Shown: in pieces, positions 11,203 through 63,900 of the stretch
Layout of the letters: every line of letters begins with the position of its first letter
How positions within the stretch are numbered: the first letter of the stretch is position 1
Source: Cyanosarcina radialis HA8281-LM2
Lineage (GTDB): Bacteria > Cyanobacteriota > Cyanobacteriia > Cyanobacteriales > CCAP-1448
DNA length: 64,000 bases
Reading direction: 5' to 3'
Assembly (NCBI GenBank): GCA_019359615.1
Contig: JAHHHA010000004.1
Coordinates: 124,001 to 188,000 of the forward strand
Made by a program: the position numbers and the translations under genes
Notes under the pieces: model-generated
What the model saw: only the letters and a program-made list of their open reading frames with translations
What the model was told of the DNA's origin: nothing
The model's database searches: none

Positions 11203-11301
11203 TTAGCAGCGTCCAGGGGGCTAACGCCCCTCGATCGATAATTAAATTTCCTCCTTTGTTTGTTCGTTCGTTTCTCTCCCATATCCGGCAGGATAATTTT
11301 T

Positions 11302-13125
11302 ATGCGTAAATTCCCGTTTGTCGTTAATTCCATCAAAATCTTAATTGTTGATAGCGAGCCAGAAAATATTTGTTTTTTATCTCAGTTTTTGAGACATCAA
11401 GGATATGATATTAAAACTGCCAATAGCGGCAAATCTGCCTTGATGCAAGCTCAAGTTGAAACTCCCCATTTGATTTTGCTGGATGGCAAAATGCCAGATA
11501 TGGATGGCTATGAAATTTGTCGATCGCTAAAATCTTTACCGCTCACAGCCGAAATTCCTGTAGTGTTCTTTTGCCATCAAGAAGAATTAGTAGATAGAGC
11601 GAGAATCTTTGACGTAGGAGGAGCAGATTATTTACCTTTACCATTTCACTTACCAGAAGTTTTAGCAAGAATAGAAAACCAATTAGTTTTAAATGCAAAA
11701 ATCCGAACTCGCGGTAACTCAGATAAAGATTTAGAGCGCCGAGGTAAACTATTATTTATTACCGATCGCGCCCTGAGAAAGACAGTTAAAAAACGCCATC
11801 ATTTGCGAGATTCGAGCGACGATATTGCTCGCTACGATCGCCTAACGCATCTCCCCAATCAAAGTTGGTTTGTCGATCGCCTGCATCAGAGAATTATCGG
11901 CAAACAATCGGCTTCAGGCAATTCCTACGCCGTGCTGTTTTTAGACTGCGATCGCTTCAAATTAATTAATAACTCTTTCGGTCATCAGTTAGGCGATCGC
12001 TTGCTAGTGGCGGTGGCGCGGCGATTGGAATCTTGTCTGCGTGCTAATGATGCGATCGCTCGGTTTGGCGGTGACGATTTTACTATTCTGCTGGAAGGAG
12101 TTAGAGATGTCGAACACGCTATCATAGCAGCTAAAAGAATTCATCAGCATCTAACTGCACCATTTATCATTGACAACCATCAGATCTTTCTCAATATTTG
12201 TATCGGTATTGTTTTGGGTAACTCCGATTATCATTATCCCGAAACAATTTTGCGCGACGCTGATACTGCCATGCACGCAGCTAAAAGAAAAGGCACGTTC
12301 TGCGAAGTATTTTCTTCAGAGATGTACGATCTGGCCCGGAATACTTTAGAACTAGAAAACAATCTGCGTTTAGCTTTAGAACGTCAAGAACTGTCCGTTC
12401 ACTACCAACCGATATTATCGCTAACCACGGGTGAAATTAGCGGATTTGAGGCTCTAATTCGCTGGTATCGTCCCGATGAAGGTTTTATTTCGCCAGCTAA
12501 TTTTATTCCGATCGCCGAAGAAACTGGTTTAATCGTGCCCATTGGTACGTGGATATTGCGGGAAGCTTGCCGACAGTTTCGCGTTTGGCTGAACCAAAAA
12601 TCGGTCAAATCGTCAGCTAGAATTAGCATTAATCTCTCGGTCAAGCAGTTTTATCAGCCGGATTTAATCGAGCAGATCGATAACATTCTGCAAGAAACCG
12701 ATCTGTCAGGACATAATTTAAATCTAGAAATCACTGAAAGCGTCTTGCTCGATCGAGACGAATCGGCCATGAAGATTATCGAGCAACTCAGAGAACGCCA
12801 AATTCACTTAAGCATTGATGATTTTGGCACTGGTTATTCATCTTTAAGCTATCTTTATCGGCTGCCCGTTAATGCTTTGAAGATCGATCGCTCTTTCATT
12901 ATGAGAATTAGCGAAAATAATAAAAACTTGGAGATCGTCAAAACCATTATTAACTTGGCCCACCACTTAGGAATGACGGTTACGGCTGAAGGCATAGAAA
13001 CTGACCACCAAGCTACTCAACTGAAATCTCTAAAATGCGAATTTGCCCAAGGATTTTTCTTTTACAAACCACTTGATAGCAAACGGGTTGAAGAGATCTT
13101 TGAGCTTCATAAAGCGGCTACCTAG
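11302..13125 (+). CDS. response regulator with GGDEF and EAL domains
   Basis: This 607-residue cyclic-di-GMP turnover protein has an N-terminal REC domain with phosphoacceptor Asp61 (ILLDGKMPDMDGYE), a GGDEF domain and an EAL domain. The GGDEF active site reads GGDDF (from residue 256) and is preceded by an RAND inhibitory-site motif. The EAL domain starts at Glu383 in FEALIRWYRP and has the loop DFGTGYSSLSYLYRLP with KIDRSFI. The EAL site looks intact, so phosphodiesterase activity is likely; GGDDF is a permitted variant whose cyclase activity is uncertain. ATG at 11302 with AGGA upstream is preferred over 11260. It heads a row of four co-directional signalling genes. Confidence 0.92.
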   Translation: MRKFPFVVNSIKILIVDSEPENICFLSQFLRHQGYDIKTANSGKSALMQAQVETPHLILLDGKMPDMDGYEICRSLKSLPLTAEIPVVFFCHQEELVDRARIFDVGGADYLPLPFHLPEVLARIENQLVLNAKIRTRGNSDKDLERRGKLLFITDRALRKTVKKRHHLRDSSDDIARYDRLTHLPNQSWFVDRLHQRIIGKQSASGNSYAVLFLDCDRFKLINNSFGHQLGDRLLVAVARRLESCLRANDAIARFGGDDFTILLEGVRDVEHAIIAAKRIHQHLTAPFIIDNHQIFLNICIGIVLGNSDYHYPETILRDADTAMHAAKRKGTFCEVFSSEMYDLARNTLELENNLRLALERQELSVHYQPILSLTTGEISGFEALIRWYRPDEGFISPANFIPIAEETGLIVPIGTWILREACRQFRVWLNQKSVKSSARISINLSVKQFYQPDLIEQIDNILQETDLSGHNLNLEITESVLLDRDESAMKIIEQLRERQIHLSIDDFGTGYSSLSYLYRLPVNALKIDRSFIMRISENNKNLEIVKTIINLAHHLGMTVTAEGIETDHQATQLKSLKCEFAQGFFFYKPLDSKRVEEIFELHKAAT

Positions 13126-13143
13126 CCAGCATTATCTTGACTT

Positions 13144-13170
13144 GTGGGATAGCCCTCTGGGCTGTCCCTC
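13144..13170. repeat. GGGATAGCCC palindromic repeat
   Basis: GGGATAGCCC and GGGCTGTCCC form a hairpin with a TCT loop. Related palindromes occur at 10135-10159, 23563-23589 and 53430-53456. It lies between the first two signalling genes and could end transcription, but no U tract follows. Confidence 0.7.
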
Positions 13171-13194
13171 TAGAGCTACAACTTTATATAAACT

Positions 13195-16152
13195 ATGAGC
13201 TTTAAATTAACTTCATTATTATTTAAACGCAAAAATCAAGACCGAGTTTTGCCAGGTGGCTCGCTCGGACGCGATACCATAATTAATATGGGAGCGCGGG
13301 TAGCAGCAGTAATATTCGTCGTATCTGGACTGAGCTATATGCACTTTTTGCTCCGGCTCGATACCGATTTAAAAGGACGTTTAACCAAGTATATTACCGA
13401 GAGAGGAAAGCGAGAAGTAACTATCTTTGTAACAGCAGAAAAAAATCACAAAATTCTGCAACAGCAAGTTCGCAAACAGTTAAAAACTATTTCTGATAAG
13501 AGTGCTGCCACTACTTTTAAGCAAATTTTTTTCCAGTGGTCGGACGGTACGGTAAGAAATGCCCCCCAAGGTACGCCACCGGAGCGATTTAATACTGAGG
13601 AGTTCGCTAGCGCCTTTATCGGAAGAGGAGTGAAGCTAGATGCCGATTTCCAAAAGCGAATGGTGACATTTTACCAGCTGGTAGAGAAATTCGGTCCTGG
13701 ATGGCGAAACAACTTTTTAGATACTTATATCAGCTTGCCCGAAGGAGCGATCGCAATTTTTTGGCCGGGGGCGGCTTGGGCGATCGATGCTAGCCCGACA
13801 CTAGATATTACTAAGGAAGAGTGGGCTTATTTGGGAACTAAAAAACACAATCCCCAGCGTAAAACCATGTGGACGGGGGTATATGCCGATCCTGTAACCC
13901 AAGATTGGATGGTGTCAGCAGAAACTCCCATTGATGACGAAACAGGCAGGCATATCGGTACGATCGGGCATGATGTGATTTTGACAGATTTGCTCCAGCG
14001 GACGATTTCCGATCGTATGGAAGGAACTTATAACTTGCTAGTGCGAGCGGACGGACAACTGATTGCCCACCCTCAACTGATGAACCAAATTCAAACAGCA
14101 GGGGGTAAATTTACCGTCAAAGATGCCAACAATAGCAATCTCCAGCGCCTCTTCAATTTAGTCAAACAAAATCCTACCGGACAACACGTTATCTATAATG
14201 CCGTCGATCGAGAATATCTGGCTGTCGTCAAACTAACTGGCCCTGACTGGTATTTAATCTCAGTCTACCCAGAATCCTTACTGCAAGAGCAAGCGATGGA
14301 TGCTACCAAATTTATTGTGCTCCTTGGCAGCATATCTTTGTTGGTAGAAATTATTTTATTGCTATTAGTTTTGCGCCAAAAAGTTGCTAATCCATTAGAT
14401 CGACTATTACTCGCTACTAACCAGATTATGGCAGGTAAGTTTGATGTCGATCTAGATCGCGAACGTCGCGACGAACTAGGGCAACTAGCTACGGCTTTTA
14501 CTCGAATGACAGAACAATTGCAAGAGTCATTCTATACACTAGAGCGAAGAGTTGCAGAACGTACTCTTGAGTTAGAGCAAGCCAAAGAACAAGCAGAAGT
14601 TGCCAGCCAGGCCAAGAGCGAATTCCTAGCTAATATGAGTCATGAGTTACGAACTCCTCTCAATGGAATTTTGGGTTACGCTCAAATTTTGCGACAGTCA
14701 AAAAATATAACAGAAAGAGAAAAAAAAGGTATCGAAATTATCAATCAATGCGGCTCGCATCTTTTGACTTTAATTAACGATATTCTCGATCTTTCCAAGA
14801 TCGAAGCTCAGAAAATGGAATTAAATCCGACTAATTTTCATTTTCCCCCTTTCTTACAAGAAGTAGCAGAAATTTGTCAGATCAAAGCCGAACAGAAAGG
14901 AATTGAATTTGTATATCAAGAGGGCGATCGCTTGCCAAATGGCATTCAAGCCGATGAAAAGCGATTGCGACAAGTATTGATGAACTTGCTGAGCAATGCA
15001 ATTAAATTTACTGAAATTGGCCGAGTGACGTTTACCGTCAAGATTTTAGAGCAGTGGGAGAGCGATCGAGCAAAACTTGCAGGTGATGACCCAGATAAAT
15101 TAACCAGAACAGACTTATTATCTAAAAACTCAATTCTCCAAACTCTGCCCTTCAATGTAGATGAAGTTCAGCTTTCAGATAATTCTACAAATAACAATAC
15201 TAAACAGTATTATTCCCTACGCTTTCAAGTTGAAGATAGTGGAATCGGTATTAGCAGCGAACATTTAGAAAAAATATTTTCCCCCTTCGAGCAAGTGGGT
15301 AACGCTAACAAACAAGCTGAGGGGACGGGTTTAGGATTAGCTATCAGTCAAAGAATTGTCAGTTTAATGGGTAGCAGTTTGAACGTTCACAGCCAACTTG
15401 GTAAAGGCAGTGTTTTTTGGTTTGATGTCGAACTACCAGCCGCTCAGGAATGGTCGGTAAAGTTACCAGCTGCTCAACAGGGTAATATTATTGGCTTTAA
15501 AGGGGAAAAGATAAAAATATTGGTAGTAGACGATCGCTTAGAAAATCGGTCGGCGATCGCAGATTTACTCTCACCTCTAGGTTTTACAATTCGAGAAGCT
15601 ACTAACGGTGTAGAAGGCTTAGAGAAAGCTATAAAATGGCAACCAGATTTGGTTATTACCGATTTATCGATGCCAGTAATGAACGGCTATGAAATGCTTG
15701 TCAAGTTACGTCAAGAAGCCCAATTGTCAGATTTAGTAGCGATTGCTTCTTCAGCTAGCGTGTTTGAGAGCGATCGACAAAATAGTTTGACCGCAGGTGC
15801 TAATGAATTTCTACCCAAACCGATGCAAGTTGAGACTTTATTAGCTACTTTGGAAAAATATCTAAAATTAGAATGGCTTTATGAAGAAAGCAAAACTGTA
15901 AAATTAGAACGAGCGGAAAATAAAGTAGAAATATCTGCATCTGAGATCTTACCGCCACCGCCCGATAAATTAAATCTACTTTTGGATCTAAGTCGCAAAG
16001 GTTTAGTTAACAATTTACTTCAAGAACTTGAAATAATTGAAAATATAGATCCTCAATTTATTCCTTTTTCCGATCGTATTCGTCAATTAGCTAAAGGCTT
16101 TCAAATCAAGCAAATTCGCTTATTTATCGAACAGTATACGATCGCTAAGTGA
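13195..16152 (+). CDS. Cache-HAMP hybrid histidine kinase with C-terminal receiver
   Basis: A 985-residue membrane sensor. After an N-terminal helix (about residues 30-50), a large extracytoplasmic dCache-type sensor domain (about 55-375) ends at a second helix (FIVLLGSISLLVEIILLLLV). HAMP follows (about 395-450), then HisKA with His483 in [21 protein letters not shown]. The ATPase has N box LLSNAIKF, G1 DSGIGI and G2 GTGLGLAIS. The receiver has Asp823 in VITDLSMPVMNGYE. The last 80 residues (LPPPPDKLN to FQIKQIRLFIEQ) are shared with the C-terminus of the kinase at 16759. The ligand of the sensor domain is unknown. Confidence 0.93.
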   Translation: MSFKLTSLLFKRKNQDRVLPGGSLGRDTIINMGARVAAVIFVVSGLSYMHFLLRLDTDLKGRLTKYITERGKREVTIFVTAEKNHKILQQQVRKQLKTISDKSAATTFKQIFFQWSDGTVRNAPQGTPPERFNTEEFASAFIGRGVKLDADFQKRMVTFYQLVEKFGPGWRNNFLDTYISLPEGAIAIFWPGAAWAIDASPTLDITKEEWAYLGTKKHNPQRKTMWTGVYADPVTQDWMVSAETPIDDETGRHIGTIGHDVILTDLLQRTISDRMEGTYNLLVRADGQLIAHPQLMNQIQTAGGKFTVKDANNSNLQRLFNLVKQNPTGQHVIYNAVDREYLAVVKLTGPDWYLISVYPESLLQEQAMDATKFIVLLGSISLLVEIILLLLVLRQKVANPLDRLLLATNQIMAGKFDVDLDRERRDELGQLATAFTRMTEQLQESFYTLERRVAERTLELEQAKEQAEVASQAKSEFLANMSHELRTPLNGILGYAQILRQSKNITEREKKGIEIINQCGSHLLTLINDILDLSKIEAQKMELNPTNFHFPPFLQEVAEICQIKAEQKGIEFVYQEGDRLPNGIQADEKRLRQVLMNLLSNAIKFTEIGRVTFTVKILEQWESDRAKLAGDDPDKLTRTDLLSKNSILQTLPFNVDEVQLSDNSTNNNTKQYYSLRFQVEDSGIGISSEHLEKIFSPFEQVGNANKQAEGTGLGLAISQRIVSLMGSSLNVHSQLGKGSVFWFDVELPAAQEWSVKLPAAQQGNIIGFKGEKIKILVVDDRLENRSAIADLLSPLGFTIREATNGVEGLEKAIKWQPDLVITDLSMPVMNGYEMLVKLRQEAQLSDLVAIASSASVFESDRQNSLTAGANEFLPKPMQVETLLATLEKYLKLEWLYEESKTVKLERAENKVEISASEILPPPPDKLNLLLDLSRKGLVNNLLQELEIIENIDPQFIPFSDRIRQLAKGFQIKQIRLFIEQYTIAK

Positions 16153-16758
16153 CGAACGCTTAAATTAGTGTAACGCGACTAAAATGGTGCGTCATGATGA
16201 AGATTATTAGCCGGAGGTTGGGGGAAGGATAGGAAAACCAACTAACCCAATCATAATGCCTCATTTGTTTTATTAAAGATCGGTAAATTTACAGAGTAAG
16301 TCTCTGTCATTTTATCTTGCAATTTAGGGAATTATAGATAAAGTTGTAACGCCATAATAGCCTCGCCAATGAAGACGATCGCCATAAATCCTTAGTTAAG
16401 TACAAACCAGGTGAATGAATGAGATCTATTCCAAATCGCTCAGGCACTAACTGAGGAGGCGGTCGCTCTTCAATGCGATCGCTAAAAAAGTTTAGAGGTT
16501 GGCGGTAACAACTTTTTGCCCAAGCCAAATTCTGCCTGACGCTTGATTAATTTTATTACAGACACATCTCCAATTAAAATGGATATACGAACAGAGTCAA
16601 CCAGCAGAGTCAAATCAGGTATAAAATCAGACCAAGCCTATAGCAGGTCAAATTATCCTTCTGTCCGTTGAAGATTTAGCTTTACTCTTAGCTCTAACTC
16701 GCAAATCGAACGATATCTATAAGCAGTCAAAAGTCAAAAGTTATTGGTGCGGCAAACT
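16153..16758. other. gene-free stretch between two kinase genes
   Basis: About 600 bp with no gene I can support. Small frames here lack a ribosome binding site and a recognisable product. A short AGTCAAA heptamer duplication lies just before the next gene (16727-16741). The promoter of the second kinase is expected here but no clear element was seen. Confidence 0.5.
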
Positions 16759-18843
16759 ATGATTTCAATTCCAGGCGGTCAAACCATCTTAATAGTCGAT
16801 GATAATCCTACTAACTTAGAGGTGCTGTCAGAAACTTTGACTGGTGCCGGATTGTCAGTGTCAGTAGCCATTGATGGCGAAAGCGCGATCGAGCAAGTAG
16901 AGTATCATCAACCAGAGCTAATCTTGTTAGATGTGATGATGCCTGGAATTGACGGCTTTGAAACCTGCCAGCGCCTCAAAGCTAACTCCATAACAGCAGA
17001 GATTCCTGTCATTTTTATGACGGCTTTATCCGATACCGAGCATAAAGTCAAAGGTCTGTCTTATGGAGCGGTGGACTATATTTCTAAACCCTTTCAGCAA
17101 GAAGAAGTGCTAGCGAGGGTAAGAGTACACTTGCAGTTGCGCCACCTCGCCAGAACTCTCAAAGAGCAAAATCAAAAGCTGACAACTGAAGTTCAAAAGC
17201 GCCAGCAAGCAGAATTAGCTTTACAGCAATTAAACCAAAAATTAGAGCAACGAGTCGAAGAACGCACCGCTGTTTTATCTAAAGTCTTGCAAAAGCTCAG
17301 GCAAGCTCAAGTGCAACTGCTACAACATAATGAAGAATTAGAAAGGCGCGTGGCAGATCGCACCGCTCAACTTAATGAAGCTAAAGAGGCGGCTGAGGGT
17401 GCAAACAAAGCTAAAAGCGAATTTATTGCTAATATGAGCCACGAAATTCGGACTCCGCTCAATGGTATTCTCGGCTACGCCCAAATCTTGCAATCATCGA
17501 GAAATCTCACCGAAAAAGAACGCAAGGGAATCAACATCATTCACCAATGCGGTACTCACTTATTGACTTTAATTAACGATATTCTCGATATTGCCAAAAT
17601 CGAAGCTCGGAAGATGGAAGTTTATCCGAGCAATTTTCATTTTCCTTCTTGCTTGCAAAGTATTGTCGAAATCTTTAGTATTAGAGCCGAACAGAAAAAG
17701 ATCGGTTTTATTTATCAAGCAGATCCGCACTTGCCCAGTGGCGTTTATGCTGACGAAAAGCGCCTGCGGCAAGTTTTAATCAACCTGATTGGCAATGCCG
17801 TTAAATTTACCGATCGCGGTGCAGTAACTTTCAAAGTCAAGATTCTCGATCGAGAAAAAAATCCTGAAAGCGGCGATCGCTCTTCTAAAATTAAAATTCG
17901 CTTCCAAATTGAAGATACAGGAACCGGGATTAGCGCCGACTATCTCAAAAAGATATTCAGACCGTTCGAGCAAGTAGGCGAAACTAGATTGCAATCTCAA
18001 GGTACTGGATTAGGGCTGACGATCAGCCAAAAAATCTTAGCTTTGATGAACAGCCAAATTCAAGTTAGTAGCGAACCAGGACATGGGAGTATTTTTTGGT
18101 TCGATCTAGAACTTCAAGAATCGTCTGAATGGGCCCAGTCAATGAGAGTCTCTACCCATGGAAATATTATCGGTTTCCACGGCGACAAACGGAAAATACT
18201 GATAGTAGACGATCGCTGGGAAAATCGATCGGTAATCGTTAATTTGCTCGGCGAGCTTGGCTTTGATGTCGCTGAAGCTATGGACGGGCAAGAAGGTTTG
18301 GAAAAAGTCGATCGATTCCAGCCAGATTTAGTCATTGCCGACTTAGTAATGCCAGTAATGGATGGGTTTGAAATGATCAGGCGGCTGCGCCAATCACCTC
18401 AATTGGAAAACTTATCGATTATTGTCTCTTCTGCTAGCGTATTTGAATCGGATCAGTATGAAAGTTTAGCCGCTGGCGCTGACGACTTTCTACCGAAGCC
18501 AATCTCGGCAGAAAAATTATTGGAAATGCTCCAGTCGCTTTTACACGTGCAATGGATTTATGAAATTCCAGATACTCAGAAGACCGAGCCAGAAAATTCA
18601 CTGAAAGCCGAAGATGAAAGCGCTGAAACTTCAGTGGAAATACTTCCACCTTCGCCCGAAATACTTGCTAAATTATATAGTCAGGTGAAGAAAGGAGATT
18701 TAGACGGAGCGGTCGAAGAAGCTAACAAGTTGAGACAGCAAGATGAAAAATTTAAACCATTTGCTCAACAGCTTTGTCAGCTAGCAGAAAGCTTCCAAGT
18801 CAAACAACTCCAAACTTTTATTCAACAGTTTATTGAAGAGTAG
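16759..18843 (+). CDS. REC-histidine kinase-REC hybrid protein
   Basis: This is a soluble hybrid kinase of 694 residues with no membrane helix. Receiver 1 has Asp58 in [16 protein letters not shown] coiled coil follows (about 130-215), containing two RVxxRTAxL heptad blocks. HisKA has His228 in [21 protein letters not shown]. The ATPase has [14 protein letters not shown] and GTGLGLTIS. Receiver 2 has Asp528 in [14 protein letters not shown]. The C-terminal 65 residues share LPPSPEIL and [13 protein letters not shown] with the preceding kinase. The start is uncertain: ATG at 16759 is chosen, GTG at 16747 and TTG at 16744 are alternatives, and none has a good ribosome binding site. Confidence 0.92.
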
Positions 18844-18854
18844 GAGTGTAGGAG

Positions 18855-18906
18855 TTCGGAAGTCAGAAGTCAGAAGTCAGAAGTCAGGAGTCAGGAGTCA
18901 GGAGGT
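18855..18906. repeat. GTCAGAA/GTCAGGA heptamer run
   Basis: About six tandem heptamers of the form AGTCAGA then AGTCAGG, typical short tandem repeats of cyanobacterial intergenic DNA. A CCCTCTCCGCC run follows at 18934-18970 before the next gene. Confidence 0.8.
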
Positions 18907-19001
18907 AAGAGTTCGGAATTAATAAATTATCTTCCCTCTCCGCCCTCTCCGCCCTCTTCTCCCTCTCCCCTGCACCTGTCCTTATAATTAAAAAACTATT
19001 T

Positions 19002-20012
19002 ATGAATATGCAAGAGATCGGCGCTATATTAATTGTTGATGACAATCCCACTAATTTATCGGTATTGTCTCAAACTTTGAAATCGGCTGGCTTCAAAGTA
19101 CGAGTAGCTATGGATGGCGAAAGTGCGATCGAGCAAGTACGAGAAGAACTGCCAGAACTGATTCTATTAGACGTTCAAATGCCAGGAATTGATGGTTTTG
19201 AAACTTGTTCTAGAATCAAAGCCGATCCTCTTACTAGCGAGTTGCCGATTATTTTTATCACTGCTAAAGCTGATGTCGAGAGCAAAATTCAAGGGCTATC
19301 GGCTGGGGCTGTAGATTACGTGACGAAGCCATTTCAATATGAAGAGGTGTTAGCTAGAGTTAGGGTACACCTGCAACTGCGGTTTTTAACTCGGAAAGTT
19401 CAAGAGCAAGCAGTCGCCCTGCAACAAGCTAACCACGAGTTACAACGCCTTGCCCACCTCGATGGTTTAACTCAAGTGGCAAATCGCCGCCAATTCGATC
19501 GATATTTTGCCCAAGAGTGGTGGCGGCTAGCGCGAGAGCAACAACCCCTCTCTTTGATCTTGTGCGATATCGACTACTTTAAGACCTATAACGATTACTA
19601 CGGCCATCAAGCCGGGGATGCTTGTTTGCGTCAAGTCGCCCAAATGCTCAACCAAACCGTCAGACGACCGGCCGATTTAGTCGCTCGTTATGGCGGCGAA
19701 GAATTTGCGATCGTTCTGCCTAATACTCCCGCTGAAGGGGCGGTTCGCGTTTGTCAAATGCTACAGTCGGCGATCTCTAACTTAGAAATCGTCCACGGCA
19801 GATCGCCCATCAGTCCTTATGTTACCGTCAGTTTGGGAGTTAGCAGTCGAGTTCCCACTCACGATGTTGAAGCTGCATCCTTAATTGCCGTAGCGGATCG
19901 CGCCCTTTATGCTGCTAAAGCTCAAGGTCGAAATCATTATTGCGTGGAAGCATTTCCCTCAGAAATGGCTTGCGAACCCTCTAAGTTATTGGTGAAGAAT
20001 ATGGGAATTTAA
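19002..20012 (+). CDS. response regulator diguanylate cyclase (REC-GGDEF)
   Basis: A 336-residue protein with a receiver (Asp57 in [15 protein letters not shown], conserved TAK and KPFQYEE) joined by a short coiled coil to a GGDEF domain. The active site is GGEEF in VARYGGEEFAIVLPNT, with an RPAD inhibitory-site motif five residues before it. It is therefore expected to make cyclic-di-GMP when phosphorylated and to be product-inhibited. The receiver is closely similar to receiver 1 of the kinase at 16759 (same [10 protein letters not shown] and [10 protein letters not shown]), suggesting duplication within the locus. It is the last of the four signalling genes. Confidence 0.94.
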   Translation: MNMQEIGAILIVDDNPTNLSVLSQTLKSAGFKVRVAMDGESAIEQVREELPELILLDVQMPGIDGFETCSRIKADPLTSELPIIFITAKADVESKIQGLSAGAVDYVTKPFQYEEVLARVRVHLQLRFLTRKVQEQAVALQQANHELQRLAHLDGLTQVANRRQFDRYFAQEWWRLAREQQPLSLILCDIDYFKTYNDYYGHQAGDACLRQVAQMLNQTVRRPADLVARYGGEEFAIVLPNTPAEGAVRVCQMLQSAISNLEIVHGRSPISPYVTVSLGVSSRVPTHDVEAASLIAVADRALYAAKAQGRNHYCVEAFPSEMACEPSKLLVKNMGI

Positions 20013-20064: not shown

Positions 20065-20178
20065 TCAAACGGCAACCGGAGCGAGCGCTACTAACCAAGC
20101 TATGACTACCAAAATCAAAAAGGCAATTTTGATGAGTAGGTAAATACCGCTATCTGGAAACAGAACAGGGCGTATCAT
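20065..20178 (-). CDS. 37-residue membrane peptide
   Basis: A near-perfect Shine-Dalgarno GGAGGTG lies 6 bases before the ATG at 20178. The product is MIRPVLFPDSGIYLL followed by IKIAFLILVVIAWLVALAPVAV, a single transmembrane helix. It is too short for routine gene finders. It is the last small gene on the minus strand of the peptide cluster, 104 bp downstream of the Gly-Gly precursor gene at 20282, and convergent with the diguanylate cyclase gene. It has no Gly-Gly leader, so it is not a precursor of the same type; a role as an immunity or accessory membrane peptide would be inference. Confidence 0.6.
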   Translation of the reverse strand: MIRPVLFPDSGIYLLIKIAFLILVVIAWLVALAPVAV

Positions 20179-20281
20179 CGCTTTCACCTCCATCCTTGTT
20201 AGCTAATTCTATTTTCTCCTAAAAATTAGGAGGCGTGGTAACTTTTTAACTAAGTGTCACATCAAGCAATTTTGACAGACT

Positions 20282-20476
20282 TTAGAAAGTTTTATTCTCC
20301 GGTTTAGGCTTAGAAGAAGAACGAGCGCCAGTTTGAGGCGAGTTAGAAGCCCCCTCAATATTGGTAACAGGCTCAGATTTAGGATGTGAAATCGTTCCCC
20401 CCATAACTGTTTCTAACTCGGTTTCAGCTATTTCGGTTTCGATCGCCGCTTGAATTTGATCGTATTTAGCACACAT
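20282..20476 (-). CDS. double-glycine leader precursor peptide (64 residues)
   Basis: A 27-residue leader ending IAETELETVMGG is followed by a 37-residue core rich in Ser, Thr, Pro, Lys and Asn and lacking Cys. The leader aligns without gaps with those of the four peptides at 20824-21633 (same length, with Gln9, Ile12, Glu15, ELE at 20-22, Val24 and GG at 26-27 conserved). This marks a bacteriocin-type or secreted-peptide leader cleaved by a C39-type peptidase. GAGGAG 8 bases before the ATG at 20476 fixes this start over the longer frame to 20569. Four 10-bp direct repeats lie upstream (20617-20653). Processing and modification are unknown. Confidence 0.75.
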   Translation of the reverse strand: MCAKYDQIQAAIETEIAETELETVMGGTISHPKSEPVTNIEGASNSPQTGARSSSKPKPENKTF

Positions 20477-20616
20477 GAGATTGCTCCTCGATTTAGTTGG
20501 TGTTGAAAAGGCAGTTACAGTTGTCGATCCCCAGAAAGTCGATCGATACCGATCTGGAATCGTCAGCATAATTTTTAGCTGTGAATCAAGATTAAATTAT
20601 TAGTTAAGATTTAGCG

Positions 20617-20653
20617 GTCAGATAAAGTCAGATAAAGTCAGATAAAGTCAGAT
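20617..20653 (-). promoter_or_regulatory. four GTCAGATAAA direct repeats upstream of the 64-residue precursor gene
   Basis: GTCAGA recurs at 20617, 20627, 20637 and 20647, an exact 10-bp period (TCTGACTTTA on the gene's strand), 141-177 bp before the ATG. A one-turn period of direct repeats is typical of OmpR-type response regulator sites. A similar pair lies upstream of the four-peptide unit at 21772-21791. Confidence 0.5.
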
Positions 20654-20767
20654 ATTTTTCAAAATAGCATCTGTCTGCCTCACGGGTTTGAGAAGGCAGA
20701 AGTAGTTAGAGTAAAGTTTTTAGTAATAATTTATACAGTTTTTATTCTTGCTGCCAAATCCGATCGA

Positions 20768-20813
20768 GACGTGCGATCCGCACTACGGGCAGGCTACGCC
20801 AACGCACGTCTCG
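20768..20813. repeat. inverted repeat GAGACGTGCG/CGCACGTCTC
   Basis: GAGACGTGCG near 20768 is inverted as CGCACGTCTC near 20804, with an internal GTGCGATCCGCAC palindrome. It lies just downstream (minus strand) of the first arginine-rich peptide gene and may act as its transcript end, though it also resembles dispersed repeats. Confidence 0.55.
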
Positions 20814-20823
20814 ACCCTAAATA

Positions 20824-20976
20824 TTAACGATGATGGCGACCGCGAAAACGACGACGGCGACGGCGGTGATGACCTTTAAACTTAAAATGGGAACTTCCTC
20901 CCGTTACTCCTTCCAATTCCAAATCGGAAAGTTCGCCATCGATGAGAGTTTGCATTTCTTGATTTTCAGTAAACAT
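20824..20976 (-). CDS. double-glycine precursor with His/Arg-rich core, copy A1
   Basis: A 50-residue product with a 27-residue leader (MFTENQEMQTLIDG, then ELSDLELEGVTGG). The 23-residue core begins SSHFKFKGHH, continues with six consecutive arginines and ends FRGRHHR. The core has 10 Arg and 5 His, no Cys and no acidic residue, so it is extremely basic. AAGGAG lies 7 bases before the ATG. The leader is almost identical to that of the Cys-containing peptides beside it and ends in the Gly-Gly site of bacteriocin-type leaders. No biosynthetic enzyme or transporter is adjacent. The core is an antimicrobial or nucleic-acid/metal-binding candidate (inference). Confidence 0.75.
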   Translation of the reverse strand: MFTENQEMQTLIDGELSDLELEGVTGGSSHFKFKGHHRRRRRRFRGRHHR

Positions 20977-21052
20977 GGTTGTTCTCCTTGAATTTGGTGT
21001 AAATCGAGTTATTCATCTAGCAATTGCTAGAGGTAAGTTATTACCTGAGAAA

Positions 21053-21208
21053 TTAACGGCGACGACGGGAAGAGCAATAGCGCTTACCATTTTTGTAGTA
21101 ACAGTACCTGTAATAACGTTTGTGTCCGCCTCCAGATACTCCTTCCAATTCCAAATCGGAAAGTTCGCCATCGATGAGATTTTGCATTTCTTGATTTTCG
21201 TTAGACAT
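21053..21208 (-). CDS. double-glycine precursor with Tyr/Arg/Cys core, copy B1
   Basis: A 51-residue product with a 27-residue leader (MSNENQEMQNLIDG, then ELSDLELEGVSGG) and a 24-residue core. The core begins GHKRYYRYCYYKNG and ends KRYCSSRRRR. Two cysteines nine residues apart could form one disulphide or a thioether; the core has 6 Tyr and 8 Arg. AAGGAG lies 7 bases before the ATG. The leader differs from the A peptides at only a handful of positions, so A and B probably share processing machinery while delivering different cores. Precursor status is inferred from the leader and the conserved Gly-Gly site. Confidence 0.75.
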   Translation of the reverse strand: MSNENQEMQNLIDGELSDLELEGVSGGGHKRYYRYCYYKNGKRYCSSRRRR

Positions 21209-21248
21209 GGTTGTTCTCCTTCAATTTGTTATTAATCGACCCTAAATA

Positions 21249-21401
21249 TTAACGATGATGGCGACCGCGAAAACGACGACGGCGACGGCGGTGATGACCT
21301 TTAAACTTAAAATGGGAACTTCCTCCCGTTACTCCTTCCAATTCCAAATCGGAAAGTTCGCCATCGATGAGAGTTTGCATTTCTTGATTTTCAGTAAACA
21401 T
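21249..21401 (-). CDS. double-glycine precursor with His/Arg-rich core, copy A2
   Basis: This is the second copy of the 50-residue precursor at 20824-20976, shifted by 425 bp, with no difference noted in the coding sequence or ribosome binding site. The strict conservation of both copies suggests either a very recent duplication or selection for dosage. Confidence 0.75.
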   Translation of the reverse strand: MFTENQEMQTLIDGELSDLELEGVTGGSSHFKFKGHHRRRRRRFRGRHHR

Positions 21402-21477
21402 GGTTGTTCTCCTTGAATTTGGTGTAAATCGAGTTATTCATCTAGCAATTGCTAGAGGTAAGTTATTACCTGAGAAA

Positions 21478-21633
21478 TTAACGGCGACGACGGGAAGAGC
21501 AATAGCGCTTACCATTTTTGTAGTAACAGTACCTGTAATAACGTTTGTGTCCGCCTCCAGATACTCCTTCCAATTCCAAATCGGAAAGTTCGCCATCGAT
21601 AAGATTTTGCATTTCTTGATTTTCGTTAGACAT
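21478..21633 (-). CDS. double-glycine precursor with Tyr/Arg/Cys core, copy B2
   Basis: This is the second copy of the 51-residue precursor at 21053-21208. The protein is identical; a Leu codon differs silently (CTT for CTC). The AAGGAG site is kept while the bases around it differ. It is the first gene of the four-gene minus-strand unit B2-A2-B1-A1. Its upstream region carries a 10-bp-spaced pair of GTCAGA repeats at 21772-21791. Confidence 0.75.
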   Translation of the reverse strand: MSNENQEMQNLIDGELSDLELEGVSGGGHKRYYRYCYYKNGKRYCSSRRRR

Positions 21634-21771
21634 TATTGTTCTCCTTAAATTTGGTGTTGGTGCGAATTGAAAACTAGTAATTGCGAATTAAATTTATTCA
21701 TCTCGTTTACCAGTGATTTTCAACTCTGCATCTAATCTAAATTACAAATTTGAGTTCGCCTGCATGAAAAA

Positions 21772-21791
21772 GTCAGAAAACGTCAGATGTT
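21772..21791 (-). promoter_or_regulatory. 10-bp-spaced GTCAGA pair upstream of the four-peptide unit
   Basis: GTCAGA occurs at 21772 and 21782, exactly 10 bp apart, and is followed by TGTTTTCC. The first peptide ATG lies about 140 bp downstream on the minus strand, the same distance as for the array at 20617-20653. The shared spacing and sequence suggest the two transcripts are co-regulated. Confidence 0.45.
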
Positions 21792-21833
21792 TTCCTAATA
21801 TTTTCTCGATCGCTCGTCATTAAAGGTAGTAAA

Positions 21834-22340: not shown

Positions 22341-23039
22341 ATGCTAAGAATTATCACTGACTTTGACGGTCCAATAATGGATGTCTCGGAGCGATACTAC
22401 CAGACTTACAAGCTTTGCCTGGAACAGACTCGCTTGCCAGAGCAACCAGTACGGCAATTAACTAAAGCAGACTTTTGGAACTATAAGCGATCGCGCACTC
22501 CCGAACAGGAAATCGCCATCGCCTCTGGCTTAGATCGAAAGCAAGCTAGAGAATTCGCTCACTTGCGGCGGCAAAGCGTCCACCAACTGGCCAATCTAGC
22601 CTACGATCGACTCATTCCAGGTGCGATCGAGGCTTTAAAAACAGCACGACGCGCCAAGGTAGATCTAGCCGTGATGACCATGCGGCGGGAAGTCGAGCTA
22701 GAGTATGCGTTTGAGTCTTACGATTTAGGGCAATTCTTCCCTAGCGATCGCTGCTACTGTTTGGCTAACGATTACCACAAAACTCGCGATATCGACGATA
22801 AGCCTTTGTTGATGAAAAAAGCTCTAGCTGAGTTACCCCCCGCTGCCGACGTGTGGATGGTTGGAGATACGGAAGCAGATATCGTGGCGGCAAAAAGATC
22901 GGGAGTCAAGGTCATCGGGATTTTATCTGGAATTCGCGATCGCGCTCAACTAGAACTATTCCAACCCGATCTAATTTTGAATAACCTCAGCGACGCAGTT
23001 AATTTCATCTTGCGTGAGTCTGCACTCCAAGCAGCGTAA
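22341..23039 (+). CDS. HAD family hydrolase
   Basis: This 232-residue haloacid dehalogenase-superfamily protein is probably a phosphatase. Motif I is ITDFDGPIMD with the nucleophilic Asp in DFDG, motif II lies at LAVMTM, a conserved Lys follows in the DDKPLLMKKAL region, and motif IV is VGDTEADIVAAKRSG. An alpha-helical cap lies between motifs I and II (residues about 15-95). The substrate cannot be told from the sequence. It is followed 18 bp later by a convergent acetyltransferase gene. Confidence 0.88.
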   Translation: MLRIITDFDGPIMDVSERYYQTYKLCLEQTRLPEQPVRQLTKADFWNYKRSRTPEQEIAIASGLDRKQAREFAHLRRQSVHQLANLAYDRLIPGAIEALKTARRAKVDLAVMTMRREVELEYAFESYDLGQFFPSDRCYCLANDYHKTRDIDDKPLLMKKALAELPPAADVWMVGDTEADIVAAKRSGVKVIGILSGIRDRAQLELFQPDLILNNLSDAVNFILRESALQAA

Positions 23040-31742: not shown

Positions 31743-31810
31743 CCATTAATTTTGGTTTAAGCAAATCATACTTTTTATAACCGCTTTTAGAAAAATAATT
31801 TGAAGAGCAA

Positions 31811-31834
31811 CTTACTTTTTATTACTTTTTCATG
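31811..31834 (+). promoter_or_regulatory. 10-bp direct repeats TTACTTTTTA upstream of DUF4278 gene
   Basis: CTTACTTTTT and ATTACTTTTT followed by CATGC repeat with an exact 10-bp period, 115-137 bp before the ATG at 31948. The pattern resembles the RpaB HLR1 arrangement (two direct repeats one turn apart), though the sequence is not the HLR1 consensus. Confidence 0.45.
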
Positions 31835-31947
31835 CTGTGCAAGCCGAAGGGTTATAGCAAGATATAAATGTGCAAAACAAAAAGCCAAGTCAAAAGATTA
31901 GCATCTAACACTTTTCTCAACCTTTTCATTTAATAAGGAGTCTTCTG

Positions 31948-32214
31948 ATGTTTCAACTCACCAATGGTACTCAAGTTCCCTCTGCTGCTAAGAAGTCCAT
32001 TTCATCGAAATCTACTTACGCTCTCGCTTATCGCGGCACCAGCTATGAAGCGCCAAAAAATCAAATCTCAGAAACAACCGATCGCTCGATCGACCAGAAA
32101 TTAATTTATCGCGGTGCTAAATATGCGATCGATCGCGAAGTCGTTTTATCTCCTCTCAAGTCCGGCCGGTATTTAACCTATCGGGGTGCAAATTACGCGA
32201 TCGCTGATGCCTAA
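31948..32214 (+). CDS. DUF4278 domain protein
   Basis: A small basic protein of 88 residues with three copies of the DUF4278 core: LAYRGTSYE (about residue 26), LIYRGAKYA (about 51) and LTYRGANYA (about 77). DUF4278 repeats (YRGxxY) are nearly confined to cyanobacteria and have no known function; such small proteins are often stress-induced. AAGGAG lies 8 bases before the ATG. A long AT-rich upstream region with 10-bp direct repeats suggests strong regulation. Confidence 0.85.
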   Translation: MFQLTNGTQVPSAAKKSISSKSTYALAYRGTSYEAPKNQISETTDRSIDQKLIYRGAKYAIDREVVLSPLKSGRYLTYRGANYAIADA

Positions 32215-57534: not shown

Positions 57535-58065
57535 TTACTCAGTTACGACGTAGGTTCCAACTCCAGTACGAGCAGGTAGATTGCAACGGATTTCGTAAGC
57601 GCCACCAGGGGTTTGCTGAACCCGGCCGTCGAAGAAGAGCGAGGACTTCCCAGGAGTGCCAGGTGCACCGCCGCTGACAACTTTGGTTAATCGCTGAAAC
57701 TGAGCGCCTGTTGGTCCTAGCTGATTGACCCCATAGGCTCGCAAGTCGCATTCAAGGGTGGTGCTAGCAGCATTGTTGTTATATACGTGAACTAAAGCCG
57801 TCGGGCCGACTTTACCGTTTTCAGTGCCACCAGTGATATCCCGCACGACCGGACAATTCACTTCCACAGTGGAATTACTGACGTTAATGACTTGTCCGCC
57901 AAATAGCTGGATACTCCCAATGTTGCTAGCAGTGGGGTTGGCCAGATAACATTGGCTACCAGGATAGACCTTGGCATCGCCAGCAAAAGCGGCGCTAGAG
58001 ATGGCAGTGGTAGACATTAAAGTTGTTAGAGCAACTAGAGCTTTGAGTTGATTTTTAGAATTCAT
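57535..58065 (-). CDS. secreted protein, unknown
   Basis: A 176-residue protein with a clear Sec signal peptide (LKALVALTTLMSTTAISSAAFA, cleavage after AFA). The mature part is about 147 residues and mainly beta, with four Cys (SQCYLAN, VNCPVV, LECDLRA, EIRCNLP) that could make two disulphides. It has stretches VHVYNNNAASTTLECDLRAYG and TPGGAYEIRCNLP. I do not recognise the family. A 10-bp-period repeat array lies 67-92 bp upstream, similar to the arrays before the Gly-Gly peptide genes. Confidence 0.75.
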   Translation of the reverse strand: MNSKNQLKALVALTTLMSTTAISSAAFAGDAKVYPGSQCYLANPTASNIGSIQLFGGQVINVSNSTVEVNCPVVRDITGGTENGKVGPTALVHVYNNNAASTTLECDLRAYGVNQLGPTGAQFQRLTKVVSGGAPGTPGKSSLFFDGRVQQTPGGAYEIRCNLPARTGVGTYVVTE

Positions 58066-58131
58066 GATTTACCTCGGTTTGGGTGTGAATTTCATCATGT
58101 ATTCACTTTAAGAAAATACCAAGATGTTGTC

Positions 58132-58157
58132 AGTAAGAAAAAGTCTGAAAAAGTAGG
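58132..58157 (-). promoter_or_regulatory. 10-bp direct repeats upstream of the secreted-protein gene
   Basis: GTAAGAAAAA (58133), GTCTGAAAAA (58143) and GTAGG (58153) repeat at an exact 10-bp period; on the gene strand this reads CTACTTTTTCAGACTTTTTC. The unit closely resembles TTACTTTTT before the DUF4278 gene and TCTGACTTT before the Gly-Gly precursor genes. Confidence 0.45.
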
Positions 58158-58214
58158 TTGTTTTTATAAAAAATCAGAATTAAAATTTAGAGCGATCGCG
58201 ACAATAATTAGCAG

Positions 58215-60921: not shown

Positions 60922-63900
60922 CTATTCCAATGGCTGGCACGTAGCAGGGATGCCTGCCTGCATTTGTTGGATTGCCCGATCGATCGCTGACTGAGCCGAG
61001 AAACTCAAATCGTAATGCTCGATGCTCTGTTGTAGCAGTTCCAGTTGAGCCATCGCTCTTTGTCTTTCTCCCAACACCAACAATCCCTGAATCAAAATTG
61101 CCCACGAGAGCGAAATTTCGCTGGGATGATTGACGATTTGGGCGTTTTTGAGAGCGACTTCGGCCCGATCGATTGCTAACTGGGGTCGATCGCGACTCAG
61201 ATCGAATTCGGCAGCACCAGTTAGGACGTAGGATACCATTCGTTTGGCATCCATCTGTTGCAGGGTAGCGATCGCCTCAGTCAACTCTATTTCTGCGTCG
61301 GGCAGATCGAGGCAATAGCGAGCTAATGCTTTCAAAGCCATGGCAACTGCTGCTTCGCTCCCCTCCCCTTGAATTTTGGCCGCCACCACCAACATTTCAT
61401 CGCAGTAAGGTAACGCTGCCATCGGCTCGCCCGCCTCCAACTCAGTCATTGCCAGATAGCTGAGATAGCTAAATTCCCGCCAGTGGTCTTTCTGCGCTCG
61501 CGTCAGTTGCCATCCCTGTTGGAGATGCGATCGAGCTTCAGCATAGTCTCCGCGATGGCGACGCACGCATCCCAATCCACCCAAAATATCTCCCATCTCT
61601 AAACCCACCCTAGCTGCCAGGGATTGCGCTTCCAACAGCAGGGCTTCTGCCCGCGCCATCTCTCGGCCGATTTCTGCCAAACAGGAACCGCTCAATGCCA
61701 GCATCCGGGCGGCTGTTGCCGGACTGGCAAACTGACTGGCAGCAGCTTGCAGGGAATGCTGGTGGACGCTGGTAAAGTTGCCGCGATCGAACTGTAAGAT
61801 CGTCAAGGCTTCGAGAGCGATCGCTTCGGCCTCGCTCGAACCTAAAGATTTGGCTTCAGAGAGCAGTTGTTGGATCTCCGTTTCTAGTAGAGCGGCGCTC
61901 TCTCCGGTTACGCCTGCAAAGACGCAAACCCTCAGCAATCCGGCATGAAGGGAAATTCGAGTTTCGGGTTCGAGAAATCGACCGTGCTGGATGCCTTGCT
62001 CGGCTAACTCTAAAGCTTCAGTATAAGCAAACAATTTCAGGCAGCGTTCGGCAGCGGCTAAGGCGGTCGATGCCGCTAAAGCGCGATCGCCTCCTAAAGA
62101 GGCATGGTAGGCAATATCGCTAGCGAGGGAATCGTCGGTAGCAAAAGATTTTTGCAGCGTCCGGGCTATTTGCAGGTGTACTAAGCGACGGCGGGCAGTC
62201 GATAGCTGGTTGTAGGCCACTTGACGCACGATGTCATGCACGAAGTCGTATGGCGTTTCGCCTTCGCTCGCTGCTGCCGGACGCACGATCCCTTCTTGTT
62301 CTAGTTCCTCGATCGCTAAGAGCAGTTGGTGAATCGGACAATCGGCAATCTGGGCGATGGTGGTCGGGTCGAAACTGCGACCGAGCGCCGCTGCCCACAG
62401 CATTAGTTCTCGCGTCGATCGATCTAGTTGCTGTAGTCGATCCTGAATCAATGCTTCTAAGTTGTCCGAACTAGCCGTGCCGTGCTGAGAGATGGCGCGG
62501 GCGATTTCTAGAGCTAACAAGGGGTTGCCCCCGCTGTCAGCAAATACTCGATCGACTGCGATCCCCCCTGCCCCCCTTAAAAAGGGGGGTGGGATAGATG
62601 TATCCGCTTCTTCGGCACGCCCTTTTTGCTCGATCGCACGCACCAGTTCCCCAATCTGCTCTCGATCGAGTAGTGGCAGTTCCAGAGTTTGCAAGCGGCG
62701 ATCGCGCCGGAGGGCTGATACCAATTTACTCGCAGGTCGATCTCGCTCCAACTCGCGAGGACGGGCAGCACAGGCAAACCGCACCGTAGTTCGGCCGAGT
62801 AAGCGTGCCGCATAATGCAGGAGGGCGGTTGAGGCTTCGTCTAACCACTGGATGTTGTCGAAAATGACAACTGTTAAAGTCCGATCTTCCGATCGCCCAG
62901 ACAAGAGACGAACTACTGCATCGAACAGCCGACCGCGATCGGCTGGTGCTTCTGGTTGAGGGGAAACTTCGGGGAAAAGCGATCGCAACTCTATAGGTAA
63001 GTCAGCTAGAGATGGTTGGGGCAGCGTTGGCGTAGCCTGTTGGGAAGCAACGTATCTGATCGCATCGATCCAAACACCATAGGGTCTGAGCATTTCAGCT
63101 TCAAAGGCGCATCCCCAAAGCACCTGACCGTTTCGATCGCGAACGGCGGTGGCTAGTTCTTCTAACAGGCGAGTTTTACCAATTCCAGCTTCTCCCAGCA
63201 GCAGCAGGATTTCTGAGGTGCTGGTTTCTGGAGTAGCGACCAACCAGTCGTGGAGGACTTGCAATTCGCGATCGCGCCCTACTAAGGGAAGAGACGGCGA
63301 GAGCGGGAGAGCGCGAGAGGGCGGAGAGGGCGGAGGAGCAGCGGAGCAGAGAGGAGGTAAATCCTTGAAGAGCGACGGTTCGTCTTCATTTAATATCCGT
63401 TGGTAGAGATTTCTAGTAGCCAAACTCGGATCGACACCCAACTCTTCTCGCAGTACGGTCATGCACTGGTAGTAAACTTGGAGGGCATTGGCACGATCGC
63501 CGCTCAGTCCGTGTAATTGCATCAAGGCAGCATAAGTTCCCTCGTTCAGCGGCTCGATCCTTAATAGTTGTTGAGCGTAGCCGATGGCAGTTCGATAGTC
63601 TTGGCGCTTTTGCAGCACTTCGATCGATTCCTCCAACGCTCTGACTCTCATTTGCGCCAGTCGTTCTCTTTCTGGGACGATCCACTCATCCTCGCAGCTT
63701 GGTAATAAGTCGCCACCGTACAACTTTAGAGCTAGATCGAGATGCGATCGCGTTTTGTCCAGGTCAGTCGTTTGCCCTGCGGCTTTGACAGACTCTTCAA
63801 ATTCCATTACGTCTAGGGTGAAGGGAGCCGTTAGCGACCATTGCAGGGTTTTGGATTCAATTAGGAGAAATCGATCGGATTCTGGTAAATCGCGCCTCAG

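Follow-up and report, generated by a model that had tools for sequence, protein, structure and literature searches.

Introduction

Double-glycine (GG) precursors, peptides with a short leader carrying a motif of the form ELxxxE...GG, numbered 290 predictions in one survey, which also mentions remote precursors in cyanobacteria (PMC3140520). By the account in PMC4997328, the function of predicted GG precursors had gone unexamined before the work on Synechococcus elongatus, in which efficient secretion of the GG proteins EbfG1-4 depends on the C39 transporter PteB and biofilm formation requires these four proteins. Beta-hairpin antimicrobial peptides (AMPs) are, to the knowledge of the authors of a 2026 review, restricted to animals and plants (PMC13001179). 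In one of them, arenicin-3 of the lugworm, the chain makes a type I' turn at Asn11-Gly12 and is closed by disulfides Cys7-Cys16 and Cys3-Cys20 (PMC7311426); an analogue, N6, with Cys7-Cys16 as its one disulfide has activity similar to that of the parent, and this bond is called indispensable (PMC5469750). Here we describe a block of five short genes in a 64,000-nucleotide stretch of the 6.5-Mb genome of Cyanosarcina radialis HA8281-LM2 (genome G000), namely positions 124001-188000 of contig C37, hereafter the window. On balance we hold it an even call that the block encodes co-regulated, C39-exported, bacteriocin-like peptides, two of them strongly cationic, with an arenicin-3-like hairpin core. 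The GG precursors themselves are of a known kind; what would be surprising is the predicted hairpin core and the promoter.

Gene block and tandem duplication

The five minus-strand open reading frames (ORFs) of the original prediction are all present in the ORF list and sequence, each preceded, as claimed, by a ribosome-binding site 7 nt before the ATG (GAGGAG for gene 1, AAGGAG for genes 2-5). A GGDEF response-regulator gene (19002-20012, plus strand) and a HAD-type hydrolase gene (22341-23039, plus strand) flank the block, which comprises the following features.

20282..20476, minus strand: gene 1 (peptide P0001), related leader at 20396-20476, Ser/Pro/Lys-rich core at 20285-20395
20824..20976, minus strand: gene 2, peptide identical to that of gene 4
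21053..21208, minus strand: gene 3, peptide identical to that of gene 5
21249..21401, minus strand: gene 4 (P0002), leader at 21321-21401, core SSHFKFKGHHRRRRRRFRGRHHR at 21252-21320 (ORF list, model)
21478..21633, minus strand: gene 5 (P0003), leader at 21553-21633, core GHKRYYRYCYYKNGKRYCSSRRRR at 21481-21552 (ORF list, hairpin model)
20811..21235: copy A of a 425-bp tandem duplication, holding genes 2 and 3 (repeat comparison)
21236..21660: copy B of the duplication, holding genes 4 and 5 (repeat comparison)

Five peptides had been claimed. There are indeed five genes, but they encode only three peptides, P0002 (genes 2 and 4) having 50 residues and P0003 (genes 3 and 5) 51. The two copies of the 425-bp unit are identical at 417 of 425 positions, with a single exact run of 365 nt, and each holds one gene of each strongly basic type; within the coding sequences of genes 3 and 5 the sole difference is a synonymous Leu codon. 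The repeated leader and ribosome-binding-site segments form a 111-nt repeat family, which would favour unequal exchange. Two plus-strand ORFs antisense to the block (20975-21235 and 21400-21648) were rejected as the true genes, since both simply reflect the repeat and show none of the leader and ribosome-binding-site logic.

So near-perfect a tandem could be an assembly error, and this, together with the failure to find homologues, is what would be expected if the genes were young or decaying and without function and the tandem were recent noise. We consider that very improbable, given that all five genes keep intact ribosome-binding sites, that promoter elements stand before genes 1 and 5, that the leaders are related across the block and that the duplicate's only coding difference is silent.

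The 27-residue leader aligns without gaps, as had been proposed, and ends in ELExVxGG in all five genes, in agreement with the GG leader motif. Of its 27 residues, 23 are common to genes 5 and 4 and 10 to gene 1 and either of these; the BLOSUM62 score between the leaders of genes 1 and 5 was reached by none of 20,000 shuffles. The combination of a conserved leader with divergent cores is also borne out in the DNA. Compared without gaps, genes 5 and 4 are identical at 73 of 81 leader bases and at 27 of 72 core bases, the likeness ending right after Gly-Gly, a sharp border of the sort seen when one leader cassette has been joined to new cores. Computed pI values are acidic for the leaders (4.05) and basic for the cores (9.5, 12.0 and 10.5). 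Extremely basic or Tyr/Cys-rich cores had been claimed; the charge is strong in those of genes 2/4 (+11 over 23 residues) and 3/5 (+10 over 24) but only +2 in that of gene 1 (K/R minus D/E).

Against the CTB family bacteriocin model NF038167, genes 3/5 and 2/4 score 16.1 and 14.5 bits (E 0.0094 and 0.029) over approximately their first 30-34 residues only, and gene 1 gives no match; no block precursor reaches the curated CTB cut-off of 32 bits. P0001-P0003 have no match to the Nif11-type model TIGR03798 at E<=10, and the sole Pfam match of P0003 is to the lantibiotic model PF04604, at 15.9 bits under a cut-off of 21.7, so that membership of that family is not indicated either. Three further GG peptides of the genome match the window leaders strongly in a joint profile, although the same six sequences built that profile. 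The original prediction knew of no described family with these cores, and the P0003 searches described below gave no homologues. The leader is of a known kind, its end resembling those of CTB and Nif11/NHLP-type leaders, though it falls short of CTB membership.

Predicted hairpin and Arg6/His cores

The core of genes 3/5 (GHKRYYRYCYYKNGKRYCSSRRRR) contains two Cys with eight residues between them and Asn-Gly at the exact midpoint. AlphaFold2 places strands at residues 32-39 and 42-49 of the precursor (block pLDDT, the predicted local distance difference test, 80 and 78 for residues 31-50), in a register whose partners sum to 81, so that Cys36 faces Cys45 (36+45=81). The core is thus predicted to be a beta-hairpin turning at Asn40-Gly41 with its two Cys facing each other. 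Ring size and turn, as read from the residues, match those of the inner ring of arenicin-3. Set against the definition of beta-hairpin AMPs in PMC13001179, the core is short and cationic (24 residues, +10), and it has exactly two Cys, which face each other in the model, the bond between them being predicted.

The core of genes 2/4 (SSHFKFKGHHRRRRRRFRGRHHR) includes five His and six consecutive Arg, and has no Cys, two Ser and no Thr. The model of P0002 shows a helix in the leader only, the core being without predicted secondary structure. Because the duplication keeps the Arg6/His gene 1:1 with the hairpin gene, two-peptide action of their products is possible.

Promoter element R1

The pattern TCTGACNTTNTCTGAC occurs upstream of gene 1, in three overlapping copies, and of gene 5. 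It belongs to an element made of 10-bp-phased CTGACTTTTT repeats, in which a CTGAC or CTTAC half-site is followed by a T-run. We modelled this element from sequence only, as R1, using 10 building sites that include the one before gene 5 and leave out that before gene 1.

21756..21795, minus strand: R1 element upstream of gene 5, containing TCTGACGTTTTCTGAC at 21772-21787 (E 2.1e-9, among the 10 building sites)
21727..21740, minus strand: putative -10-like TTAGATTAGATGCA downstream of R1, aligned in seven promoters
20617..20652, minus strand: TCTGACTTTATCTGAC in three overlapping copies before gene 1 (R1 match at 20632-20660, E 0.0014, not a building site)

The seven promoters align through the repeats, the spacer and a TTAnnTTAnAT region about 20 nt beyond the repeats. 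A scan for sigma-70 sites and terminators gave no more sites than in shuffled sequences.

Across the genome the pattern TCTGACNTTNTCTGAC occurs nine times exactly and nine more times with one mismatch, and the reversed pattern not at all. Nine of 195 genomes of the order, C. radialis included, have any exact copy, and no other has more than two; the remaining 194 give nine matches in eight genomes against seven in seven for the reversed pattern, which is chance level. The exact sites fall into six clusters, upstream either of GG precursors (twice on C37, once each on C21 and C2) or of Sec-secreted-looking proteins (C5, C46), secretion being judged here and below by eye from N-termini. With R1 at E<=0.001, C. 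radialis has 22 places, G015 10, G024 six and 11 further genomes one or two each, while 134 of 148 genomes have none; at E<0.01 the C. radialis genome has 26 places in 24 promoter regions. Secreted-looking targets of R1 are found on C5, C7, C29, C33 and C46, and in the window at 57535-58065.

G015 belongs to the sister genus and is the sole other member of the family among the genomes searched. Six of its 10 R1 sites precede relatives of C. radialis targets, with identities of 93% over 176 residues, 67% over 387, 64% over 211, 46% over 99 (followed by a gene with 80% over 102) and 46% over 54, the remaining pair sharing only a 41-residue stretch. Most of the C. radialis sites with G015 counterparts helped to build R1; the G015 sites did not. 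The element thus has phylogenetic support. Two of the G015 counterparts correspond to R1 sites elsewhere in the window, one at 31802-31841 (plus strand) before a DUF4278 gene (31948-32214) and one at 58127-58166 (minus strand) before the gene for the secreted-looking 176-residue protein (57535-58065). In another genome of the order (G089:C1:2258645-2258939) two R1 elements point towards one another across about 230 nt, and a gene that by eye resembles an extracytoplasmic function (ECF)-type sigma factor follows one of the two after about 100 nt.

One G015 site precedes a secreted-looking 77-residue protein that ends in KFKKLRCYKKRFYYRGHYIYKTFCFKH (G015:C148:2001-2234, plus strand). Downstream of the repeats its promoter resembles that of gene 5 with a score of 39, reached by none of 500 shuffles (maximum 34). 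Relatives of this protein, basic and with two Cys, are encoded in C. radialis at C10:36047-36295 (plus strand) and as three tandem copies at C28:13485-14406 (plus strand); the stretches searched around them are free of R1 matches at E<=1. All four forms compared have a Gly turn (Asn-Gly, Arg-Gly, His-Gly or Ala-His-Gly) exactly midway between the two Cys. Their Cys-Cys loops measure 8, 16, 26 and 27 residues, and we do not claim homology to the window core. A wider reading, which we put forward tentatively and regard as doubtful when taken whole, is that the family evolved disulfide beta-hairpin AMPs of its own by two routes, GG/C39 in C. radialis and Sec in both C. radialis and the sister genus, with the GG hairpin and the sister-genus Sec hairpin under one new promoter type, which would serve further exported peptides too, and the GG one paired 1:1 with an Arg6/His peptide. 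On that reading they would be a bacterial counterpart of the arenicin- and tachyplesin-type host-defence peptides.

No regulator of R1 was identified. Direct repeats spaced by about one helical turn presumably suggest an OmpR- or SARP-type regulator. SARP-type regulators bind direct repeats, and a large protein encoded at 60922-64000 of the window (minus strand), SARP/BTAD-AAA-like by eye, is one candidate. We also considered HLR1, which we take to have the same 10-bp period as R1, as the identity of the element, along with a Pho box and an NtcA site. HLR1, bound by RpaB, is likewise a short direct-repeat element of cyanobacterial promoters and so agrees in form, but PMC6331805 prints TTACA-type HLR1 sites and not CTGAC/CTTAC followed by a T-run, and HLR1 was rejected. 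As to when the peptides are used, in Nodularia the CTB bacteriocin genes go up when phosphate is limiting (PMC9846622) and R1 stands before NblA in C. radialis; by analogy these hints suggest that nutrient stress may be the condition.

The range of R1 targets bears on the main rival explanation, in which the products are EbfG-like matrix peptides, C39-exported to build or trigger biofilm, with basic cores that attach to DNA, to anionic polysaccharide or to cell surfaces. The S. elongatus precedent speaks for it, some R1 sites stand before seemingly secreted proteins that belong to no known toxin type, and the Arg6/His core would suit polyanion binding. Yet EbfG precursors are 9-10 kDa and their mature forms 6-7 kDa (PMC4997328), as against block cores of 3.1-3.9 kDa, and a two-Cys hairpin with a central turn, as predicted here, would be unexpected in mere glue. 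We therefore judge biofilm use unlikely, although it is the strongest of the alternatives.

Relatives in other genomes

Plasmids searched with P0003 by tblastn gave nothing, and the P0003/A2 search of the genome contigs gave 97 pattern stretches, none of them confirmed. Four of 291 genomes of the order have a P0003 match at E<=0.01, C. radialis included. Of the three others, one crosses three stop codons (G145), one falls within a minus-strand open frame of 288 codons (G120) and one is the leader end of a 111-residue Nif11/NHLP-like precursor (G110). The leader profile A1 matched in 11 of 60 genomes at E<=0.1, again including C. radialis. We read the seven plus-strand places of the 14 in other genomes; six are Nif11/NHLP-like precursors matched at their leader end, with unrelated cores, and one is an unrelated protein (L016). 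Homologues conserved in the core rather than the leader, which would have told against the original prediction, were thus not seen in the few relatives read. The window precursors were not found in G015 with the A1 profile.

At E<=1e-20 the HAD hydrolase of the block's neighbourhood was found in 165 of the 243 genomes searched, and 80 of 195 named relatives were kept. At 109 HAD loci (29 + 80; flanks of about 1.5 and up to 5 kb), a GG-leader pattern and tblastn with the three precursors at E<=1 found nothing. Synteny at these loci therefore shows no ancestor of the block.

Export machinery

The original prediction had found no C39 transporter in the window and had proposed that the machinery acts in trans. 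A PF03412 search of the genome agrees on both counts; the genome does have C39 peptidases, at seven places, all of them on contigs other than C37. One, on C7, combines a 596-residue HlyD protein (PF13437, 83.9 bits) with a 726-residue C39-ABC protein (PF03412, 116.5 bits) among CTB precursors, two of which exceed the family cut-off. The last 16 residues of the window leaders were compared, without gaps, with the leaders found next to four C39 proteins, the remaining three of the seven having none to compare. The window leaders score 36, 33 and 32 against the C7 leaders, with next-best scores of 19, 19 and 23. Among other precursors given the same treatment, C21b and C21c favour C7, C21a scores equally well with C7 and C54, and the best partner of the C2 leader is C27. 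Export in trans by a C39 exporter is plausible on these comparisons, because the C7 C39 place sits with HlyD and true CTB precursors, whose leaders are the most similar of the four sets compared. Of the wider claim that these are C39-exported ribosomal peptides, the leader/core logic, the C39 logic and the machinery in trans thus survive, while the count of five peptides does not. Neither the predicted hairpin nor the shared promoter had been noticed there. On C27, at 69954 (minus strand), a 65-residue GG precursor with a (Lys-Ser)n core ending in SGSGSGCCYCH stands near a 714-residue C39-ABC gene.

The block is not alone in lying far from any C39 gene, as three GG peptides at C21:245.9-246.8 kb do likewise. 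So do two near-identical Nif11-type GG precursors at C2:39.6-40.6 kb, one of which scores 37.1 bits against TIGR03798 (cut-off 32.3). The pair is followed by a radical SAM/SPASM gene (G000:C2:38298-40624, minus strand), with CTGAC repeats upstream of each, and is probably a separate cluster for a ribosomally synthesised and post-translationally modified peptide (RiPP) under the same promoter type. This neighbour under the same promoter type, the weak leader resemblance to PF04604 and the remote precursors mentioned in PMC3140520 would suit a reading in which the block too encodes RiPP precursors, their cores being modified before C39 export by an enzyme encoded elsewhere, such as a lanthipeptide synthetase or the C2 radical SAM protein. 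The PF04604 score is nonetheless below its cut-off, the genes 2/4 core offers two Ser and neither Cys nor Thr, and no tailoring enzyme or synthetase was noticed by eye in the window ORF list, a genome-wide search not having been made. Such modification seems to us improbable.

Directly behind gene 1 lies one further short ORF.

20065..20178, minus strand: 37-residue single-span membrane ORF from the second ATG, with a strong ribosome-binding site (GGAGGTG) 7-8 nt before

Its 42-residue form has no Pfam or NCBIfam match. It could possibly encode an immunity or accessory peptide. On the other side of this ORF, four large plus-strand sensor/response-regulator ORFs (11260-20012; GGDEF/EAL and hybrid histidine kinases, by eye) adjoin the block. 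Sensor and GGDEF genes so close by, and the fact that C39 exporters also carry pheromones (PMC10986499), would be in keeping with a role as secreted signals that the producer or its neighbours sense. We rate this as more improbable still than enzymatic modification, since duplication raises dose and not specificity, Arg6 and +10 hairpin cores would be unusual for a receptor ligand, and no receptor was identified.

Proposed mechanism

If the block encodes bacteriocin-like peptides as proposed, a promoter with 10-bp-phased CTGACTTTTT repeats and the TTAnnTTAnAT region would drive genes 5-4-3-2, and the repeats stand once more ahead of gene 1. The acidic leader would guide the precursors to a C39-peptidase ABC exporter and its HlyD partner encoded elsewhere, most likely at the C7 locus, and the exporter would cut after Gly-Gly and release the cores outside the cell. 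The genes 3/5 core would there form a single-disulfide (Cys36-Cys45), Tyr-rich, +10 beta-hairpin of the arenicin-3 kind that acts on bacterial envelopes. The Arg6/His core would either act together with the hairpin or be a second peptide that binds membranes or polyanions. The genes, their leader, the duplication, the recurrence of R1 and the presence of C39 and HlyD genes are established here, and the hairpin is a prediction; cleavage, exporter identity, peptide pairing and killing are what we infer.

Several results weigh against this proposal. No core homologues were found with the P0003 query in the 291 genomes of the order, the genome contigs or the plasmids, and no immunity gene for the peptide block was identified. 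The AlphaFold2 model was run on a single sequence without an alignment and has a mean pLDDT of 65.6 and a predicted template modelling score (pTM) of 0.28. The shuffle test that favours the hairpin, in which 647 of 400,000 shuffled cores had Asn-Gly at the exact midpoint of the two Cys, was chosen after the pattern had been seen. The top match in a sequence search of the PDB, the chimeric peptide 6k4v, is not significant (E 0.33), although the stretch matched, WNVCVYRNGVRVCHRR, comes from the arenicin-3 variant N6 (sequence in PMC5469750); a Foldseek search with the P0003 model also puts 6k4v first, at E 1.6, with none of 18 matches at E<=0.001. Exporter assignment by leader score is weak, given the C21a tie, the C2 leader preferring C27 and the three C39 proteins that were left uncompared. 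As for co-regulation, R1 also precedes a DUF4278 gene, NblA, a LuxR-type response regulator, a major facilitator superfamily (MFS) transporter and an FAD oxidoreductase, places on C50, C15, C34 and at C64:100.8k have no clear downstream gene, and four of the nine one-mismatch sites lie inside long ORFs; these unrelated targets, geneless places and sites within ORFs rule out R1 as a specific bacteriocin or peptide marker.

If the proposal is true, a ribosomal, GG-exported bacterial version would widen the beta-hairpin AMP class and provide a small molecule that is easy to synthesise. R1 would in turn give a handle on when cyanobacteria deploy GG precursors far from any transporter.

Comparison with known systems

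By its leader, the block is nearest to two described precursor families. Like the CTB bacteriocins (NF038167) it has a leader end of the ELSxxxExxxGG type, but the true CTB precursors of this genome stand with C39-ABC and HlyD genes, whereas the block has no adjacent transporter, and its cores are unrelated to those of CTB and much shorter. With the Nif11/NHLP-type GG precursors (PMC3140520; TIGR03798) it has in common the leader end GELSxxELExVxGG; Nif11 precursors carry a long Nif11-type leader, in contrast to the 27 residues found here. EbfG1-4 and PteB are likened to the block by description only, as small GG-motif proteins exported through a C39 transporter; the C. radialis genome likewise encodes GG proteins and C39 transporters.

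By its predicted core, the block is closest to arenicin-3 and its one-disulfide analogue N6, with which the P0003 core shares a C-x-Y-[RK]-N-G-x-R-x-C ring, the Asn-Gly turn and a basic tail. Arenicin-3 has a second disulfide and comes from an animal BRICHOS proprotein (family described in PMC13001179), whereas the block has a bacterial GG leader, and no homology is claimed. A literature search for bacterial precedents, largely outside subscription papers, returned no bacterial beta-hairpin, the nearest being bactofencin A, with the defensin-like actifensins also found. Bactofencin A, of class IId, is like the P0003 core bacterial, highly cationic and closed by a single disulfide, but its Cys7-Cys22 bond spans a large loop and its transporter and immunity genes lie within its own operon (PMC5465099).

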